Positions 35,208 to 45,840 of a stretch of 48,656 bases of DNA are shown one piece after another. Location: NCBI GenBank assembly GCA_026196615.1, contig JAPHSW010000144.1, forward strand, positions 87,987 through 136,642, read 5' to 3'. A program made the translations under genes and the position numbers. The notes beneath the pieces were generated by a model. That model was given only the letters and a program-made list of their open reading frames with translations. It was not told where the DNA came from and ran no database searches. Positions within the stretch are counted from its first letter, which is position 1. The number at the start of each line of letters is the position of its first letter. The DNA is from Gammaproteobacteria bacterium (GTDB taxonomy: Bacteria; Pseudomonadota; Gammaproteobacteria; GRL18).

Positions 35208-38200
35208 TTGACTGAAGGCAATTTCTCATTGGAACGAAGAACTTATAATCGATCACCTGTAAGGCTTGATGCAGTTGTGCATGATCGGATGTATCGTTCG
35301 TGGGACTTTATCATTGAAGACTTTGGTTTTGATGGTCTCCGATTATCCTGGAATAACAAAGAATTAATGCCTGGAAGTATTGGTGTTGATGATCTCCTTG
35401 ACGTTAAATTTACCATTAAATCTGATGTAAAATCTGACCAGCATATTGAAGAAGTAGACTATCACCTTGAAGTTAAAGTTATTCGTGTTTTGGATCAAGG
35501 ACTTGCTGTCACACTGTTTAATCCAGGTTTGGATGCGTTAGCTGAACTTAGTAGGAAACAACATCAAAGTGGCATGCATGGTGATGCAACTCTTGCTCGC
35601 ACTCTAGATAAAAAATCACAAAATCTACTTGATACTGTGAGACATAGTTTTATAAAAAATATGTCTCACATGACAGAAATTTTTTTACCAATTGTTCATG
35701 ATGAGTTATTTCGACAAGCTGAAAGCTCTTCAAATAATACTGAACAAACGCTTTATTTTGATGCTATTAATACTCTTAATAAAACCAAGAAAAGTCTTAA
35801 AATTCAATTTATTAAACTTTTAGAAAAGCATCTTAATACATGCTGTGAAGGAAACAAAAAAAATAATAAAAAACAAGATTTTGATGAGTTAGAATTGATT
35901 GACCAAAATGATTATGAAAACTGGTTGGCAGTTAATCAGCTTATAATTCATGTATCACCTCTTTATGAACAAGAGTTGATTGAAATTGAGTTAAGACTGG
36001 CACATTTACTTAATACTGACATAAAAAACCTTACTGAAAATCCTTTTTCACCAGAAACAATTTTTAACAGTTTTAGTGAAACCATTCATAACCACTTTTT
36101 GAATAATGATATTCTACTCATTCTTTATCATCAGTTTAAAAAAGTTGTCGACAGTAAATTATTTGATACTTACAAAGAGATCAATAAAATCTTTATTGAT
36201 CAGAATATACTTCCAATAATTGAAAAGAAAAAATTAAAAATAGTTAAAGAATCTTCAGGAAGTGATATTTCTTCAAGGGATAATTTTTCAACTAAAACTG
36301 ATGAATCTGCAACGACGGAATTATCTGCAAATTCTAATCATAGTGCAAAGCAACAACCCCAAAATCAGATAGAAAATAATTCAAATGCTTCGTTTGGAAA
36401 CAACAATCAAGCATTGGCTTCAAATGCGCATCTCAGTGAAATAAATACAATTAACAATAATGTTAATTTGGTGCCAACTTATCAGACTCTTAAAGAGCTT
36501 CTTTCTTTTCAAAATGGTGAAGAAGTTGATGGACTATCACAAGACTTTTTTGATTCTGATGAATATAAGAATCAACTAGACTACCTTATTTCTGAATTAA
36601 CTCAAATACAGTACAAACAAGCCAAAGATGTTACACAGAATGGAATTACTCCTTTTGATTTAGAATCACTTGTACAAAATTGTATTAAAAAAGAAATCTT
36701 CTCAATTGAAATAAAAAATGAATTTGAATATACAGTTGATATTATTAAACGCTTGTTTGATTCCATTCAGAATGATGCCTGGCTAGGTCGTCCTGTAAAA
36801 AAACTTTTATCTTTATTAAAAATTCCATTACTAAAAGTTTCTTTGCTTCATAAAGATTTTTTTGAATCCTGGTCAAATCCAGCTCGAATATTAATGAACA
36901 AATTGGCCATGGTTGATTTTGATGATGAAAAAAATAACTTTTATCTCAAAGCTCATTCTTTTGTTCTTTTTATCTTAAAAAATTATGATAAAGACTTAAG
37001 TGTGTTTTCTAAGGTTCAAGAGGTTCTTACTGAGCTTTTAGATATTCAATCAAAACATTATAAAAAAAATGTGAATAGAGTTGTCACACATTGGAATGCC
37101 CAACAAGTTGTTACTAATGAAATTGCCAATCGACTGGCAGGGAAATCGACTCCATTAATTATTGCTGATTTTATCAGTTACCAATGGCTTCCTATTCTTG
37201 TTAATACCTACCTTAAACAAGGCAAAGAGAGCAATCAATGGAGTCAGTATTTGCAAGCTCTTGATATGTTAATTTTAAGTATGAGTGGGGATGTAAGTGA
37301 AGAATTTATTGATAAAGATGTTATTTTATTTATCATAAAACAAGGTTTGGAAGAAAATGGTCAGCTCAATAAAAAGATAATTGATGCTATAAGTTTATTT
37401 TTATCTGAAGGGAAATCAGATAATGGTGTACAACTTGATTATGAAAGTATCATCAAATTGCTCATCAATGGTTATGCTCTTTCTGATAAATCAGCTTTTG
37501 CAAAAATTAATAAGGGTGTTACTGACGCAATGGCTTTGGCCAACAAAGCCATTGCAAAACGATTGAAAGTTAATGATTACGTTAATTTTAAGCAACATTT
37601 AAAGAAAGATACCGAAAGAGGCAATAGAATCACTCGCCTACAATATATATGGGGAAGTGATGCTCAAAATGTTTTTGTTTTTTCTGGAAGAACTGGTCAA
37701 CAACAAGCGGTTTTTAATTTAACAGAAGTGATTTCTATGTTGGATAATGGTCAATTATGTCCGACTAAAGATTATGATCTTCCATTACTGGAAAGAAGCT
37801 TATATGCAATTCTAGGTGATGTTCATGATGATCTGGCAAAAGACAGTGTGTTGGATAAGCTGACAGGACTTATCAATCAAAAAGAATTTGTACGTCTTTT
37901 AACTCAAAAGCTTCAGGGAAGAAAGAAGGATGACTCTGAATGTACTCTCTTTTTGATTGATATTGATCATTTTAGTTTGATTAATGATACTTGTGGCTAT
38001 GATGCTGGTGATCAATATATTTCTGAAATTTCAAGAGATATTAAGAACAGTTTACCATCGGATGTGATCTGTGCACGTTATGGTACATGTGAATTTATTG
38101 TTTTGCTTCCTGGATATTCAGAAGTTGAAGCATCAATAATTTCTGAGTCACAACGATGCTTAGTGAACCACCATAATTTTAAATGGGATGATAAAGAATT

Positions 38201-39155
38201 TACTATGACGGCCAGTATTGGTCAGGTATCCATTAGACAACGAGCTGAAATTGGCGTATTTATTAAGGCGGTTGTTACTGCCTCTACAATTGCTAAAGAA
38301 ACAGGGCGTAATAGAGTCCATTTAATTGAATATGATGCTCTAGAGCTTAATTACCGTCAGGAGTTGCAAATTTGGGCAACTAAAATTGAACATATGGTAA
38401 AAAATAATAGGTTTGATATACGTGGCCAACGTTTACACCCTATTCTTGATGAATCAGCTCTACAGCATTATGAAATGTTATTATTGGTTAAAGATGATAA
38501 TGATGATTTTATGCCCCCATCAGAGTTTATTGAAGCGGCAGAATTGTACAATAAGATGGCTGAAGTTGATCGTTGGGTAATTAATTATGTATTTGACTGG
38601 TTTAGTAGGCATCCTGAACAGCTTGAAATAATGGGAGGGATTGCCATTAACCTATCTGGACAAAGTTTGAATGATGTGGATTTTTATCCTTTTATACTGG
38701 ATGTTTTTCAACAATATCCATCAATTCCTCATAATAGAATTTGTTTTGAAATTACTGAAACAATGGCAATTAATAATATTAGTCATGCCAATAATATTAT
38801 TCATACGATTAAAGAAATGGGATGTGAATTTTCATTAGATGATTTTGGAACAGGGCAGTCTTCTTATGCATACTTAAAAAATCTTCCTGTCGATTATTTA
38901 AAAATTGATGGTGTGTTTATTAAAGACATTGCTAATAATCCTGAAGATAAAGCAATGGTTAAATCTATTAATGAAATTGGACATTTTCTTGGTATGAAAA
39001 CGGTTGCTGAATATGTTGAAAATGATGAGATTGTTGCAATTTTAAAAGAAATTGGTGTTGATTATGTTCAGGGTTATGGTGTTGAAAAACCTATCTTTAT
39101 TACGCAATACATGGATGTAATAGAATCAAGAGGAACTGATAAAATATTGTCATAA
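35208..39155 (+). CDS. PilZ-DUF1631-GGDEF(degenerate)-EAL protein
   Basis: A 1315-aa cytoplasmic protein. An N-terminal PilZ-type domain (about 8-105) keeps an RxxxR (RTYNR), while the second motif is altered (DFGFDG instead of D/NxSxxG). Residues about 130-870 match the DUF1631 type, with a low-complexity Asn/Ser/Gln linker near 370-425. The GGDEF domain has GTCEF at 959-963, so cyclase activity is unlikely. The EAL domain has EML (1089-1091) for EAL, but keeps INLSGQ, FEITET, DDFGTG (Asp1211-1212), KID, AEYVE and QGY. It could still be a phosphodiesterase. Start is TTG at 35208 without a clear ribosome site; TTG 35229 is an alternative. Confidence 0.85.
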   Translation: MTEGNFSLERRTYNRSPVRLDAVVHDRMYRSWDFIIEDFGFDGLRLSWNNKELMPGSIGVDDLLDVKFTIKSDVKSDQHIEEVDYHLEVKVIRVLDQGLAVTLFNPGLDALAELSRKQHQSGMHGDATLARTLDKKSQNLLDTVRHSFIKNMSHMTEIFLPIVHDELFRQAESSSNNTEQTLYFDAINTLNKTKKSLKIQFIKLLEKHLNTCCEGNKKNNKKQDFDELELIDQNDYENWLAVNQLIIHVSPLYEQELIEIELRLAHLLNTDIKNLTENPFSPETIFNSFSETIHNHFLNNDILLILYHQFKKVVDSKLFDTYKEINKIFIDQNILPIIEKKKLKIVKESSGSDISSRDNFSTKTDESATTELSANSNHSAKQQPQNQIENNSNASFGNNNQALASNAHLSEINTINNNVNLVPTYQTLKELLSFQNGEEVDGLSQDFFDSDEYKNQLDYLISELTQIQYKQAKDVTQNGITPFDLESLVQNCIKKEIFSIEIKNEFEYTVDIIKRLFDSIQNDAWLGRPVKKLLSLLKIPLLKVSLLHKDFFESWSNPARILMNKLAMVDFDDEKNNFYLKAHSFVLFILKNYDKDLSVFSKVQEVLTELLDIQSKHYKKNVNRVVTHWNAQQVVTNEIANRLAGKSTPLIIADFISYQWLPILVNTYLKQGKESNQWSQYLQALDMLILSMSGDVSEEFIDKDVILFIIKQGLEENGQLNKKIIDAISLFLSEGKSDNGVQLDYESIIKLLINGYALSDKSAFAKINKGVTDAMALANKAIAKRLKVNDYVNFKQHLKKDTERGNRITRLQYIWGSDAQNVFVFSGRTGQQQAVFNLTEVISMLDNGQLCPTKDYDLPLLERSLYAILGDVHDDLAKDSVLDKLTGLINQKEFVRLLTQKLQGRKKDDSECTLFLIDIDHFSLINDTCGYDAGDQYISEISRDIKNSLPSDVICARYGTCEFIVLLPGYSEVEASIISESQRCLVNHHNFKWDDKEFTMTASIGQVSIRQRAEIGVFIKAVVTASTIAKETGRNRVHLIEYDALELNYRQELQIWATKIEHMVKNNRFDIRGQRLHPILDESALQHYEMLLLVKDDNDDFMPPSEFIEAAELYNKMAEVDRWVINYVFDWFSRHPEQLEIMGGIAINLSGQSLNDVDFYPFILDVFQQYPSIPHNRICFEITETMAINNISHANNIIHTIKEMGCEFSLDDFGTGQSSYAYLKNLPVDYLKIDGVFIKDIANNPEDKAMVKSINEIGHFLGMKTVAEYVENDEIVAILKEIGVDYVQGYGVEKPIFITQYMDVIESRGTDKILS

Positions 39156-40073: not shown

Positions 40074-41486
40074 CTACAGGGTAAAGTCACAGGGACTGTT
40101 TCTATCAATAATTAATTTTGCAGCACGTTGACCACTTCTTACTGCACCTTCTAAAGTTGAAGGATAGTGTGTATTAGTATAGTCACCTGCGAGAAAAAGT
40201 CCTGGTATTTTTGTTGTATTTTGAGGACGTTGACTTTCAATATTAACTTGACAGCTGAAAGTGGCTTTTTTTTCTATGATGACTTGAGAATCAAGTATAT
40301 TGGGCAGATTAGGAATACAAAATGATAATTCTTCATGAACTTTTTTTACCAGGAGATGGTGTTCCATTTTGATATGTAATCCAGGTCCACTGATTATGAC
40401 TGCAATGAGTCCTGGTTGATGAGTTAATGAACGATCAATAGCCCATTGTGAAGTGGTATTAAACAAGCCTATCATATTATGTGTAAGTGTGACAGATGAA
40501 GGGTATTGAATATAAACTGTACAGATAGGTTCATATTTATACAGAAGAGAAGCATTATCAGGTTTTAATATAATTGGATAATGGTGTAATAATTGCTCTT
40601 TAAAAGATTGAATAAATTTATTACAAATATGTGCTGGTGTTGCTATAACAATGTTTTGGCTCTTGTAGGATTGTTTTCTTGTTTTGATGTTAAACTCAAC
40701 AGTATTTTCTTTACTTTCTGAAAAAACTTCTATTTGGAGGACTTTTTCTTCACAATTAATACGCCCATTATGTTTAGTAATATAAGTAGATGCAGGGTTA
40801 CAAAATATCTCAGAAAGATTATGACGAAAAAATAATAGATCAGAATCAGAATTTTTTTTACTAAAGCTATCTTTTAAAACATTAAGAAAAACTTGTCCGG
40901 ATGCATTCTTTATGGGGGTATTCATAGTTGCTAAACAAAGAGGTTCCCATAATGCACTAATAACTTTTTCTGATTGGGAGTGCTTTGATAGTAATTGCCT
41001 AACACTGACATCATGTTTTAGTTTATAGCCTGTAATGTTTAAAATGAGAGACATTTTTATAATTTTATATCGATCATAATAGGATAAACCAGAGATATTA
41101 ATAAAAGCTGAAATTAAATGAAGGGGGGCAGGTAATTGAGGTGATTTTAATTGTATAAGGGGATTTTCTTTTGAATACAAATTCAACTCAAGAGATTGTC
41201 GTTCAAGAAAATCATCTTCATGGATACCAATTAACTTAAATAATTCAAGAGTTGAATGATAGGCACCCAACATAATATGTTGGCCATTATCAATTGTTTG
41301 TTGAGAAATAAAAGATTTAAAGTTAACAGCTCTGGCTCTGCCACCAATTTGCCGAGCTGACTCAAGTATAGTAACTTTGTATCCATGGTGTGATAATGTG
41401 ATAGCACAGGCCAGACCACTCCAGCCTCCGCCAACAACAATGACTTCGTCAAGATTAGATGTTGTCTTATTTTTATTTTTGTGCAA
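40074..41486 (-). CDS. hpnE: HpnE, hydroxysqualene dehydroxylase (FAD amine-oxidase family)
   Basis: Last enzyme of the HpnCDE route, reducing hydroxysqualene to squalene. An FAD-binding VIVVGGGWSGLACAITL lies near the N-terminus with GGRARAV after it. LFLAGDYTNTHYPSTLEGAV, with SGQRAA following, marks the C-terminus. No ATG is available. The frame reaches a TTG at 41519, but TTG 41486 has GAGAG seven bases upstream and puts the FAD motif closer to the N-terminus. I prefer 41486 (about 470 aa). It overlaps the hpnD end by 14 bases (47 if 41519 is used). Confidence 0.88.
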   Translation of the reverse strand: MHKNKNKTTSNLDEVIVVGGGWSGLACAITLSHHGYKVTILESARQIGGRARAVNFKSFISQQTIDNGQHIMLGAYHSTLELFKLIGIHEDDFLERQSLELNLYSKENPLIQLKSPQLPAPLHLISAFINISGLSYYDRYKIIKMSLILNITGYKLKHDVSVRQLLSKHSQSEKVISALWEPLCLATMNTPIKNASGQVFLNVLKDSFSKKNSDSDLLFFRHNLSEIFCNPASTYITKHNGRINCEEKVLQIEVFSESKENTVEFNIKTRKQSYKSQNIVIATPAHICNKFIQSFKEQLLHHYPIILKPDNASLLYKYEPICTVYIQYPSSVTLTHNMIGLFNTTSQWAIDRSLTHQPGLIAVIISGPGLHIKMEHHLLVKKVHEELSFCIPNLPNILDSQVIIEKKATFSCQVNIESQRPQNTTKIPGLFLAGDYTNTHYPSTLEGAVRSGQRAAKLIIDRNSPCDFTL

Positions 41487-42324
41487 GTTTAAACTCTCGA
41501 CGCGCTGTAGTCCAGGCAATCCAAAGCTTCTTTAGTTTGGCAATTCGGACACGTTTTTCCAGAACAGGATAATGTTGTGATTGTATTTTCTTTAACAAAG
41601 AGAAATAAATCTCTGCCATAATAATTCCGGTTCGTTGTGTATAACGATCATTTGTATCAAGATAGTCGAATGCTTTTTTATAATACTGTGTTGCTCTATC
41701 AGCGTGAAAAGAAAACAAAGCAAGTGTCTGAGGAGTGTTTCTATTAGCAGTCAGCATGCTTTGAGTGACTCCAAATTGCATTAATTCTTCTTGTGGAAGA
41801 TAAATTCGACCACGTTCTACATCTTCTTTAACATCTCTTAAAATATTTATTAATTGTAAAGCAATACCGAGATTTTTGGCATATTCATGAGTATTACTGT
41901 CTTTGTAACCTAAAATCTCTATAGTGAGCAATCCTACAACTCCAGCAACGCGATAACAGTAAAGAGAAAGTTCATTGAAAGTATTGTAATGTGTTGTATG
42001 CAAATCCATTTCCATACCAGAGATTAATTCTAAAAAAAATTTTTCTTTTAGTGGAAAATGTTTTAAAGCTGTTTTTAAAGCCAATGTAACAGGGTGATTG
42101 GGCTTGTCATGAAAAAGATTGTGGATTTCACCACGCCACCAATTTAGTTTACTGGCTGCAATTGATAGATCAGAACATTCATCAACAATATCATCAACTT
42201 CTCGACAATAGGCATATAATGCTGTCATGGCCTGTCTTTGAGTATCATTTAAAAATAAAAAGCTGTAGTAAAAGCTGGAACCACTGTGTTGTGTTTTTTC
42301 CTGACAATATTCATCTGGTGTCAT
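41473..42324 (-). CDS. hpnD: HpnD, presqualene diphosphate synthase
   Basis: Joins two farnesyl diphosphates to presqualene diphosphate. 283 aa with the two Asp-rich motifs of the squalene/phytoene synthase family: CREVDDIVDE (near residue 40) and LRDVKEDVERGRIYLP. YCYRVAGVVG lies between them. HpnD and not HpnC is inferred from position upstream of hpnE and from the motif form. Phytoene synthase is an alternative, but the linked HpnC and HpnE make it less likely. Confidence 0.9.
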   Translation of the reverse strand: MTPDEYCQEKTQHSGSSFYYSFLFLNDTQRQAMTALYAYCREVDDIVDECSDLSIAASKLNWWRGEIHNLFHDKPNHPVTLALKTALKHFPLKEKFFLELISGMEMDLHTTHYNTFNELSLYCYRVAGVVGLLTIEILGYKDSNTHEYAKNLGIALQLINILRDVKEDVERGRIYLPQEELMQFGVTQSMLTANRNTPQTLALFSFHADRATQYYKKAFDYLDTNDRYTQRTGIIMAEIYFSLLKKIQSQHYPVLEKRVRIAKLKKLWIAWTTARREFKLAQK

Positions 42325-42380
42325 ATAGGTTTCTAGTTTGGTTATTTGTTATATTAAAAAAAATGTCATAATTTCAATAT

Positions 42381-42410
42381 TTATCACATAATTAAATCAA
42401 ATGTTATACT
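42381..42410 (+). promoter_or_regulatory. Candidate promoter for the 89-aa gene in the hpn locus
   Basis: TTATCA (42381-42386) and TATACT (42405-42410) are 18 bases apart in the 231-base divergent gap (42325-42555). An exact TATAAT also exists on the minus strand at 42411-42416 facing hpnD, without a good -35. AT-rich background makes chance matches likely. Confidence 0.28.
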
Positions 42411-42555
42411 ATTATAAGTATTAGTACAGATGTTTGATAGTTTGTGTTTGAGAGTTTAATTGATTTCTATTTAATGATGATAAATGCACACAATACGACA
42501 AGCTATCAATGAGTGACATGTTGAAGAAATTATTAAAAGCATAGGGAAGCCTAAA

Positions 42556-42825
42556 ATGTCCGCAGTTGATAAAGAAGTCAATTACTCAGTGGTTTTTATG
42601 GGGGAAATCATTACTGGCTTTGAAAAACAACAAGTTATGTCAAACTTAGAAAATATTACGCGCATGCCAGCTGATGAAATTGAGAAGAAATTTTTTAATG
42701 AGTCTGTTAAACGGATTGTCATTAAAAAAACGAGCGACCTGGAAAAAGCTAGAAAATACCATGGGAAATTCTCTAGAGCAGGCATGGCGGTAGGGATACA
42801 AATGGATTTTGAAGAGACTGAATAA
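42556..42825 (+). CDS. Small protein of unknown function inside the hpn locus
   Basis: 89 aa, soluble. The pattern (YSVVFMGEIITGFEKQQVMS, then NLENITRMPADEIEK, VIKKTSDLEKARKYHGKFSRAG) resembles a small proteobacterial domain of unknown function that I recall at the N-terminus of various membrane proteins, with the same FxGxxxxGF, VxxNL, KK and AxxYxxxFxxAG spacing. AGGGAAG precedes the ATG by 6 bases. It lies between hpnD and the Cache-AlbA_2 gene but on the opposite strand, and converges on the latter with 25 bases between the stops. Confidence 0.72.
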   Translation: MSAVDKEVNYSVVFMGEIITGFEKQQVMSNLENITRMPADEIEKKFFNESVKRIVIKKTSDLEKARKYHGKFSRAGMAVGIQMDFEETE

Positions 42826-42850
42826 ATCTCATATTTTGTGTTTGCCATCT

Positions 42851-44491
42851 CTAGTACCGATTTTGTACATATTTTAATACTTTACTCACCGATAATTTGA
42901 CACTGGCTGGCCCACTTCGGATGTAAAAATCCTCATTGTTTTTATTGTATAAAAAAGTTGGGCGATCGGCTCTCTCGCACTCGATAACAAGAATTGTTTT
43001 TCCCTCAATTTCATTAATAATTAAATTAATATAATTTGAAAATTCCAGACCAATGTGTTGGCTGAGTAGGTTTTTAAAGTGAAGTAAAATTTTATCCTCA
43101 TTTTCAAATTCATCTTCTTCAATGCCAAGTATATTGGCATCGTCATCTACACCGATTAAAAGAATCCCACCATGTGTATTCATGAATCCTACCAAACCTT
43201 TTAACCAGGCAATTTCAATTTCCTTACCATTTTTACCACTCTTCAAGTTTTTTCGCATAGTGGATTTAAATTCTAGAGTTTCACTTTCTCCCAAACGCAA
43301 GAGATGATAAATTTCATTGGTAAAATCATTTGAAAAGATACTGGTTTTTGGAACGTCTTTTAGCTGATGGGCGTATTTTTTAACTAAAATATTTGCCATA
43401 CCAATAGCAATAATAATAAGTAAAACAATGCCTGTGAGTATAAAAATGATATTTTCATTAATAATATCAATGAGTTCTTTTTCTGGGACAATAACTCCTC
43501 CATAGATGGAACTATTGTAAGTATCTAATTTAAAAATTTTATACCACCAAAGCTTTCCATTTCTTGAAAAACTCATGGGTGTATCCAGTTGACTGTTATT
43601 TTTTAACCAGTTGTTAACTGAATCAAAAATGACATAATTGCTTACATTATTACCAGGTACATATAAACTTCCCTTGGATGATGAGCCCTTTACAACCGGG
43701 TGATTACCCGGTGGCAAAATTATTTCACCACTTGGACTAATTAAATATGAAATATCTTTTTTTCCAATACTTACGTTAGAAAGTGATTGAGCAATATCTG
43801 AGAGTGCTACATCAAAAGCCAGTACATAAGTCGTTTTATTTTCATCTTTCCAGCTGGTGACACCGGTCACACCAGGTATTTGTTGAGTGTAAAAATTATA
43901 AGGTTTTGTCCAATGAATTGGGTACTCAACGGTTGTTGTGAGCCCTAGTTGATACCAGGGTCTTTTTTTGGGTTGATAGTCTATGGTTTCTTGCCATTCT
44001 TTAATTAATACATTATTACTGCTCCATAGTTGCCAAAGTACTGTGCCTTCATCATATTTTTTAGGGTTAATGTGCCTTGATAACCAGTTTTCATCTTTTC
44101 TGGAAAAAAAGTACTCGTCCCCATCTGATGTTGCAAGTATTACGGACGAGATTTGCGGCAATGTTTCTAAAATTGGAATAAAACGTTTATTAAAAGTACT
44201 TTTCTTTTCTGGTGTTAGTTGTTCAAGTTCAGCCCATTTTCTGGATAAAGTTAAATTATTGCTGATTGGATCAAATATTTGATGGTTTTTATCAAGTACT
44301 AATTCTTTTGCTGAAGATATAATCGCTTGAGTGATATTATCCTGTACCTGTTTTGAATAAAGATAAGAAAGAAATAAGAATAATGATATTAAAAGTAAAA
44401 CTAGTAATGTGATATCACGTGTTAACCTGTTACGGACTGAATTTGTTGTGCTCAGGAGTTTTTTTAGAGGAGTTTGATCAATTGTTGTCAT
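42851..44491 (-). CDS. Membrane double-Cache sensor fused to an AlbA_2 (Schlafen-type) domain
   Basis: 546 aa. Membrane segment 28-45. A periplasmic region of about 300 residues with the Cache hallmark KRPWYQLG (about 176-183) and a second lobe (SYLISPSGEIIL) follows. The second membrane segment is 348-369. The cytoplasmic AlbA_2 domain (about 400-532) has ESETLEFKSTMR, LVGFMNTHGGILLIGVDDDANILGI and FYIRSGPASVKL. AlbA_2 (PF04326 type) occurs in transcription regulators and Schlafen-like nucleases. Glu402, Glu407 and Lys409 are candidate functional residues. No kinase, HAMP or methyl-accepting part is present. It lies between hpnC and hpnD on the same strand. Ligand and output are unknown. Confidence 0.87.
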   Translation of the reverse strand: MTTIDQTPLKKLLSTTNSVRNRLTRDITLLVLLLISLFLFLSYLYSKQVQDNITQAIISSAKELVLDKNHQIFDPISNNLTLSRKWAELEQLTPEKKSTFNKRFIPILETLPQISSVILATSDGDEYFFSRKDENWLSRHINPKKYDEGTVLWQLWSSNNVLIKEWQETIDYQPKKRPWYQLGLTTTVEYPIHWTKPYNFYTQQIPGVTGVTSWKDENKTTYVLAFDVALSDIAQSLSNVSIGKKDISYLISPSGEIILPPGNHPVVKGSSSKGSLYVPGNNVSNYVIFDSVNNWLKNNSQLDTPMSFSRNGKLWWYKIFKLDTYNSSIYGGVIVPEKELIDIINENIIFILTGIVLLIIIAIGMANILVKKYAHQLKDVPKTSIFSNDFTNEIYHLLRLGESETLEFKSTMRKNLKSGKNGKEIEIAWLKGLVGFMNTHGGILLIGVDDDANILGIEEDEFENEDKILLHFKNLLSQHIGLEFSNYINLIINEIEGKTILVIECERADRPTFLYNKNNEDFYIRSGPASVKLSVSKVLKYVQNRY

Positions 44492-44571
44492 AAGAAGCCA
44501 AAATAGAGAAAAAGAATAATTTTTTTACTGATTAAGATTATTGTCTGCATTTGTTGAAATAAAGGCAAGCA

Positions 44572-45477
44572 TTAAGTGTAAGAAAAGAGTCCATGTAAGA
44601 TAATTCTAAACTTATCAAAATGGCTGAGTCTGGGACGCTGATAAATTGAGTGTGTATTTTTCTCTAGCTTATTTAAGATGATTTTACCTCCTGAAAAAAT
44701 CATTCTTATTTCAATGGCAAATCGTCCAGAGAGGTTTGAACATAGTGGCTTTCCATAGTCATATAGTTTATTGGTTCGATTTAGTTGGTGTTTAAAAAAT
44801 GCCTGGGTTTTATCATTATTTAAATGATTTTTGATATCATCAATGGATATTTGGTATTTTGATAATTCTTCAAGAGGTAGATATAATCGGTCATTTTCAT
44901 CAATATCTTGTCCAATATCTTGATAAAAATTAATGAGTTGTAAACCAGTACAAATAGCATCAGAATGTTCAAGATTTTCTTTACTTGCACTTTTGTTTAG
45001 ATAGAGCAAAATTTGACCTACGGGATTTGCACTTAAACGGCAATAATCAAGTAACTCATCGAAGGTTTGATAACGTTGTTTTGTCACATCTTGTTTAAAA
45101 GCATTAATCAGATCATAAAATAGTTGTAATGGAATTTGAAAGCGATAAATTGTATCTGCTAAAGCAATAAAAATAGAGCTTTCGCTTTGGTGTAAAAATT
45201 CAGCTTTATTGTTCCCAGAGTATTTATCTAATGAACCACTAATTTGATCCAGCTCATCAATATACTGATTAAGAAGTTTTAATCTTTCATGATCATTATA
45301 ATTTCCTTCATCTGCAAAATCATCAGCAGTTCGGGCAAAAGCATAAACTGCACTGACAGGATATCGTAATTTTCTAGTCAACAGGTGTGATGCGACGGGG
45401 AAATTTTCGTAATGATTTTTTGCTATAGCCATGCAGTATTTATAGGCATGGGCCGTTTTTTGTTCTAATGTTGGCAT
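44572..45477 (-). CDS. hpnC: HpnC, hydroxysqualene synthase
   Basis: Converts presqualene diphosphate to hydroxysqualene. 301 aa of the squalene/phytoene synthase family with ENFPVAS, FARTADDFADE as the first Asp motif, and NFYQDIGQDIDENDRLYLP as the second. ENFPVAS near the N-terminus is typical of HpnC. It is separated from hpnD/hpnE by the Cache-AlbA_2 gene, with 80 bases between hpnC and that gene. No squalene-hopene cyclase is seen nearby. Confidence 0.9.
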   Translation of the reverse strand: MPTLEQKTAHAYKYCMAIAKNHYENFPVASHLLTRKLRYPVSAVYAFARTADDFADEGNYNDHERLKLLNQYIDELDQISGSLDKYSGNNKAEFLHQSESSIFIALADTIYRFQIPLQLFYDLINAFKQDVTKQRYQTFDELLDYCRLSANPVGQILLYLNKSASKENLEHSDAICTGLQLINFYQDIGQDIDENDRLYLPLEELSKYQISIDDIKNHLNNDKTQAFFKHQLNRTNKLYDYGKPLCSNLSGRFAIEIRMIFSGGKIILNKLEKNTHSIYQRPRLSHFDKFRIILHGLFSYT

Positions 45478-45651: not shown

Positions 45652-45840
45652 ATGAAAGATTTGTTATTGGGCTTATTGATTGGTGGAATAGTAGGTTTGT
45701 GGTTTGGCGTCAACCTGGGCAAAGATCAGCCTCTTATGACCAATCCATTTGCTGACAAAAACAGTATGAAAGAATTCAATGAAAAATTTGAAAAACTTCA
45801 GCAAGATGTGAGTGAAAAGAGTAAAGAACTATATAACTAA
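45652..45840 (+). CDS. Small single-span membrane protein (YtxH-like)
   Basis: 62 aa. A Gly-rich N-terminal membrane segment (LLLGLLIGGIVGLWFGVNLG, about residues 4-23) is followed by a charged amphipathic helix with regular Lys/Glu spacing. That is the build of YtxH-type small proteins, but the match is only by architecture. GAGG lies 10 bases before the ATG. Divergent from hpnC over 174 bases with no clear structure. Confidence 0.65.
   Translation: MKDLLLGLLIGGIVGLWFGVNLGKDQPLMTNPFADKNSMKEFNEKFEKLQQDVSEKSKELYN

Follow-up and report, generated by a model that had tools for sequence, protein, structure and literature searches.

The window, i.e., the whole 48,656-nt stretch of gammaproteobacterial DNA that was analyzed, carries on its minus strand a gene for a transmembrane receptor that lies among squalene genes in the order hpnC, receptor, hpnD, hpnE.

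44572..45477, minus strand: hpnC, the upstream neighbor, 80 bp from the receptor gene (TIGR03464 over cut-off; conserved synteny)
42851..44491, minus strand: dCache-AlbA_2 transmembrane receptor, whole gene (ATG start, 546 aa)
41473..42324, minus strand: hpnD, the downstream neighbor, 526 bp from the receptor gene (TIGR03465 over cut-off; synteny)
40074..41519, minus strand: hpnE, hydroxysqualene dehydroxylase (TIGR03467 over cut-off)

The receptor open reading frame is a real gene, as its orthologs in the window's family are 65–84% identical and its Cache part shows a dN/dS of ∼0.09 relative to the nearest relative. Its product is composed of the following parts, all encoded on the minus strand.

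44357..44413, minus strand: first transmembrane span (TM1), residues 27–45 (hydropathy; helix 19–89 in the model)
43457..44356, minus strand: periplasmic double Cache domain, residues 46–345 (profile matches, model and structure search)
43811..43978, minus strand: span of the dCache_1AA-type ligand motif, Y172, R177, W179, Y180, Y198 and D227 (alignment to PctA, 5ltx; conservation)
43394..43450, minus strand: second transmembrane span (TM2), residues 348–366 (hydropathy; model)
43292..43393, minus strand: conserved juxtamembrane linker without HAMP, residues 367–400, including KKYAHQLKDVPKTSI
42893..43288, minus strand: SLFN_AlbA_2 domain, residues 402–533 (Pfam 1.7e-22; pLDDT ∼95)
43286..43288, minus strand: E402, equivalent of rSLFN13 E205 (conservation and profile alignment)
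43265..43273, minus strand: E407-F408-K409, equivalents of rSLFN13 E210 and K212 (conservation and profile alignment)
43142..43144, minus strand: D450, equivalent of rSLFN13 D248 (conservation and profile alignment)

A preliminary description of this DNA had proposed two membrane spans bracketing a Cache region with an RPWY motif, followed by an AlbA_2-like domain and lacking any kinase, HAMP, GGDEF or methyl-accepting part, and our analysis bears out each element of this anatomy. The hydrophobic spans lie at residues 27–45 and 348–366, with positive residues ahead of TM1 placing the N-terminus inside; the RPWY motif corresponds to R177-Y180; and SLFN_AlbA_2 (PF04326) matches the region after TM2 with 80.6 bits compared to a gathering cut-off of 25.3. 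Neither Pfam nor NCBIfam returned a kinase, HAMP, GGDEF or MCP signaling domain in the receptor, and a weak NCBIfam match to the N-terminal part of the phosphodiesterase GepA (6.4e-6) is confined to the sensor region. The strand and the hpnC/hpnD surroundings are not mentioned in the preliminary description. Thus, the protein is a Cache sensor that is connected via TM2 directly to an AlbA_2 domain.

At the sequence level, dCache_1 (PF02743) matches the sensor at 1e-5 with 25.6 bits, which is under the gathering cut-off of 45, and it is also sub-threshold in the relatives L046 and L037. An AlphaFold2 model built on a 73-sequence alignment of relatives reached a mean pLDDT of 89.5; an earlier prediction with 16 close orthologs had left the AlbA_2 part below 55, which the 73-row alignment cured. 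The model superimposes on 6ios with a Z score of 19.3 over 226 residues (rmsd 3.1), indicative of a double Cache fold, and the best structure matches of the Cache part are amino-acid receptors, namely Mlp24 with proline (Z 19.3), Tlp3 with leucine (Z 18.9) and PctA (Z ∼17.9). The Cache identity is therefore settled by fold, despite the sub-threshold Pfam score. Neither of the two outcomes named in the preliminary description as refuting it thus occurred: the AlbA_2 match is clear, and the Cache part is matched by its fold as well as by sequence scores under the threshold. Among the matches listed in the whole-model structure search there were only Cache domains, which filled the list and left the AlbA_2 fold itself unmatched there, so that the identity of the AlbA_2 domain comes from sequence profiles.

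Alignment to PctA places Y172, R177, W179, Y180, Y198 and D227 of the receptor on Y121, R126, W128, Y129, Y144 and D173, so that all six positions of the dCache_1AA motif match; we assembled these positions from the discussion of PctA-type motifs in PMC10104139 and PMC11245519. An amino acid is thus a good prediction for the ligand class of this receptor. All six positions are kept, in a relaxed form, in 51 of 66 full-length relatives and are incomplete in the other 15. The losses include all eight members of a Desulfocapsa-type, nhaA-linked clade, in which D227 is replaced by serine and R177 by T, S, M or E. Among close orthologs, the AlbA_2 domain is the most constrained part of the protein, with 88–96% identity versus 66–79% for the Cache part. 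A divergent sensor on a fixed output fits a single output that is exposed to inputs which change.

A profile of this AlbA_2 subfamily searched against the PDB retrieved only Schlafens at significant E-values (rat 5yd0, 8.8e-9; SLFN11, 1.7e-8; SLFN14; SLFN12), and SLFN5 was also retrieved. In the profile alignment the ESETLEFK-equivalent stretch falls on ESASIEFK of rSLFN13 and GVDD on GVDD. Hence E402, E407 and D450 correspond to the rSLFN13 carboxylates E205, E210 and D248, and K409 to K212 (5yd0 numbering derived from printed chain positions with an offset of 13). These four residues, i.e., the three carboxylates and the nearby lysine of the Schlafen active site, are invariant in 73 of 73 sequences, with the adjacent D449 being variable (D in 19, A in 21, E in 11 and N in 10). 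Cleavage by SLFN13 was reduced when any of the three carboxylates was mutated, and the E205A and E210A mutants had no activity at all (PMC5862951). The lysine K212 is present in the cleavage-proficient Schlafens SLFN13 and SLFN12 and absent from the inactive SLFN5 and mSlfn2 (PMC8789055).

The preliminary description had left undecided whether the domain binds or cuts nucleic acid. The invariant SLFN13 carboxylates and lysine lean towards cutting, and nuclease activity is plausible on sequence grounds. The same residues also occur in AlbA_2 domains of other architectures, some of them annotated as DNA-binding, so that the triad and the EFK motif are a signature of AlbA_2 in general and denote an intact site rather than proof of catalysis. 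The receptor could instead be a membrane regulator similar to CadC or ToxR. Its AlbA_2 domain would then bind DNA or RNA but leave it uncut, and would regulate neighboring genes, for example hpnC-hpnD, at the level of transcription or translation. Human SLFN5, which keeps the triad yet does not cut, would fit such a regulator, as would the hpnC/hpnD synteny, which suggests a local target, and studies of pAgo and SAMD9 describe AlbA_2 as DNA-binding (PMC6299218, PMC5445408). However, the DNA binding in these studies is itself inferred, the receptor has no helix-turn-helix match, and plain binding would not need three absolutely constrained acidic residues and a lysine; we consider this alternative unlikely, though worth keeping in mind. 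That the catalytic set is invariant in different phyla, and in other architectures too, also speaks against a scaffold whose AlbA_2 domain recruits a partner protein and neither binds nor cuts nucleic acid. Our literature search found no activity for any bacterial membrane AlbA_2 protein, which would suit such a scaffold, but we regard it as improbable.

The Schlafen core consists of two lobes in one chain plus a zinc finger. According to Pfam and the model, the receptor contains one AlbA_2 domain only, and the CCCH zinc finger of the Schlafen C-lobe is missing from its translation, C505 being the sole cysteine of the domain. A two-lobed clamp would therefore depend on dimerization, with a homodimer supplying the second lobe. 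Receptors of the dCache type commonly act as dimers. A precedent for a nuclease assembled from Schlafen-domain proteins on separate chains, one of which is membrane-anchored, is PUCH of C. elegans (PMC10567574).

Taken together, we propose that the receptor is a one-component system in which a Schlafen-type endoribonuclease, dimeric and tethered to the membrane, is controlled by a small molecule in the periplasm (here probably an amino acid); we give this reading a probability of roughly 45%. In this model, the ligand of the double Cache domain would be a small molecule (for this lineage, most likely an alpha-amino acid), and its binding would shift the long N-terminal helix, the TM2 helix and the conserved juxtamembrane linker. 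This shift may change how the two cytoplasmic AlbA_2 domains of the putative homodimer face each other, and the paired domains could give rise to a cleft like that of Schlafens, in which the E-E-D/K active sites are intact. Such a cleft would cut base-paired RNA near the membrane (candidate substrates are tRNA, rRNA or structured mRNA), and this cutting could tune translation, or genes for the envelope or ion homeostasis, to conditions in the medium outside. In the window's family, the receptor may be tied to the squalene genes and thereby to squalene synthesis. Of the one-component membrane signaling suggested in the preliminary description, the direct wiring of a sensor to AlbA_2 stands, based on domain matches, a confident model, conservation and its presence in at least 76 species; signaling to a nucleic-acid target would follow from the anatomy.

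A scan of 84,980 species genomes yielded 129 relatives, with tblastn confirmation and 80 kept, all of which are lower bounds. Of these, 76 form one cluster and are full-length or nearly so, which puts the same architecture in at least 76 species from Gammaproteobacteria (Chromatiaceae, Competibacteraceae, Sedimenticola), Desulfobacterota, Myxococcota and Kiritimatiellota. The receptor is nevertheless rare: in an even sample of 398 Pseudomonadota genomes besides the window's own, matches at 1e-30 were mainly half-protein, and the window genome encodes a single PF04326 protein. The closest Cache relatives elsewhere carry SpoIIE phosphatase, guanylate cyclase or histidine kinase outputs, indicating that AlbA_2 occupies the slot of a signaling output. 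Conversely, the same AlbA_2 subfamily is also found in fusions with GmrSD_N, with a Methylase_S-like protein and with a short membrane stub; thus, the receptor joins two known modules that each occur in other fusions. Our literature search, in which subscription papers were thinly covered, retrieved nothing that pairs AlbA_2 with Cache, and we regard the dCache-AlbA_2 receptors as an undescribed family.

The GmrSD_N and Methylase_S-like proteins carry their AlbA_2 domain at the C-terminus (L049:6471-8732, L055:5813-7936, L050:1908-3620). Four short proteins of 263–277 aa have membrane spans at the N-terminus together with an AlbA_2 domain in which these invariant residues are likewise kept (L051:6406-7203, L052:1130-1963, L053:3058-3873, L054:7053-7844).

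The fusion of this subfamily to GmrSD_N restriction proteins and a Methylase_S-like protein could also hint at an anti-phage or suicide function, in which the receptor would be a membrane arm that translates an infection signal at the surface or envelope into tRNA cleavage. In line with this, bacterial Schlafen RNases have been linked to defense and BREX loci (PMC12839542). On the other hand, the receptor is a single-copy gene that is mostly inherited in place beside housekeeping genes, and its neighbors are metabolic and ion-transport genes rather than defense genes; PADLOC gave no match (0 families). We consider such a function highly improbable, and a defense-system origin of the receptor was likewise set aside as weak, given the lack of a PADLOC match and of defense genes among the neighbors.

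The order hpnC-receptor-hpnD is found in 13 genomes (the window and 12 others) from two genera, and four more contigs keep one flank of it as far as they extend. In G018, which belongs to another genus of the family, hpnC and hpnD are separated by 28 bp with no receptor in between, indicating that hpnC-hpnD-hpnE is probably the ancestral cluster, into which the receptor was inserted. One genome, G001 (L037), carries the receptor gene elsewhere. The cluster is compact in G006, with 15 bp from the receptor to hpnD and a further 5 bp to hpnE. In most of the other genomes a small opposite-strand ORF separates receptor and hpnD, which speaks against one simple transcript.

In the window, this interval contains an 89-aa ORF on the plus strand (42556-42825) without a Pfam match, and the ORF cluster at this place is conserved in 11 loci of the family. 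Another plus-strand ORF of 62 aa (45652-45840) is located between hpnC and a phosphoglycolate phosphatase-type gene, and nine related loci have an ORF of 72–99 aa at the same place and in the same orientation. A GGDEF/EAL-like protein of 1315 aa (35208-39155, plus strand) adjoins the cluster and is kept in many genomes of the family.

Whether the position of the receptor reflects an action on the squalene genes is evenly balanced in our estimate. A mere hitch-hiking between hpnC and hpnD, which would be compatible with any mechanism, is suggested by the single insertion event in one family, by the different neighbors in other lineages and by the relocation in G001; retention of the position in 13 genomes of two genera and the tight spacing in G006 argue against it.

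As for the pathway itself, no N-terminal squalene-hopene cyclase domain (PF13249) was found in the window genome, which is 99% complete, nor any CrtI-family desaturase past 1e-15. The C-terminal cyclase domain (PF13243) gave two short partial matches in the family, one in a 6181-aa open frame and one in a 411-aa frame. A role in hopanoid regulation was dropped for these reasons. A full hpnCDE set (40074-45477) beside neither enzyme points to squalene itself as the product, and the pathway of the window genome probably ends there. Squalene is a lipid that might prevent proton leakage (PMC4158274).

In other lineages the receptor has different neighbors, and in four of them it comes after a gene for a Na+/H+ antiporter or a K+ channel. 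In Desulfocapsaceae, nhaA is located directly upstream, typically at a distance of 3–19 bp and often behind an Mla-type lipid-transport cluster; a CPA2 antiporter is directly upstream in two separate lineages and a K+ channel in a Desulfobacula. Overall, a cation antiporter or channel, a category picked after the data were seen, occupies position −1 in 12 of 63 loci outside the window's family (in Desulfobacterota and Myxococcota lineages), compared to 3 among all other neighboring ORFs (704 ORFs in total). On the tree, nhaA has a single origin and CPA2 has two, so that these correspond to about four independent events. Squalene, antiporters and lipid transport might share a theme of membrane permeability. 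In a wider and more tentative version of our proposal, these proteins would be a widespread family of receptors with housekeeping roles, whose membrane-tethered Schlafen-type endoribonuclease is gated directly by an amino acid from outside the cell or by a related envelope signal, outside immunity and for membrane and ion homeostasis; we hold this to be possible, with the odds leaning against it.

Two further arrangements were observed. L124, L121 and other Desulfocapsa loci, in which the amino-acid motif is lost, combine Mla-type lipid transport, nhaA, the receptor and a xylose-isomerase-like TIM barrel protein. In four Chromatiaceae-related loci (L107:9647-10897, L075, L086 and L111), a CCA-adding/poly(A) polymerase-type gene is convergent with the receptor, and these loci do not cluster clearly on the tree. 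An adjacent CCA-adding gene is of interest because the acceptor end of tRNA is where SLFN13 cuts.

Bacterial receptors signal mostly via phosphorylation, cyclic nucleotides, methylation or DNA-binding domains, and Schlafen domains have been studied mainly in immunity and small-RNA processing. The receptor may show how outside signals reach RNA directly. If the proposal is correct, this conserved family, which combines an intact Schlafen active site with a ligand pocket that can be predicted, would be a case of a Schlafen nuclease that a ligand controls directly in everyday physiology, and would offer a small ligand-switchable system for studying how Schlafen lobes are activated. The proposal is testable, since relatives of the receptor are found in cultured hosts, e.g., Thiocystis violacea, Marichromatium gracile and Thiorhodococcus drewsii.

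Among the known systems that come closest are the 2TM-AlbA_2 (L051-L054) and GmrSD_N-AlbA_2 proteins (L049, L055), whose AlbA_2 domains belong to the same subfamily with 29–39% identity and share its invariant residues; these proteins lack a Cache sensor. A Schlafen-type domain is likewise present in bacterial RNases that are found near BREX and carry a minimal histidine kinase and wHTH; in contrast to the receptor, these are defense-linked, have other fused domains and are not transmembrane Cache receptors (PMC12839542). PUCH of C. elegans (TOFU-1/TOFU-2/SLFL-3 or -4) builds a Schlafen-type nuclease from separate chains with a TM helix in one subunit, but is a heterotrimer that processes piRNA precursors and has no extracellular sensor (PMC10567574). 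The AlbA_2 lobe, E-E-D triad and EFK lysine of the Schlafen core nucleases (rSLFN13, SLFN11, SLFN14) align residue by residue with the receptor, which differs from them in being bacterial, single-lobed, free of zinc finger, linker and helicase domain, and fused to a membrane sensor. On the sensor side, the receptor resembles the dCache_1AA receptors PctA, Mlp24 and Tlp3 and the proline-binding diguanylate cyclase sensor 7k5n in fold and amino-acid motif positions; whereas their outputs are chemotaxis or GGDEF, the receptor described here carries an AlbA_2 domain, connected without a HAMP domain.
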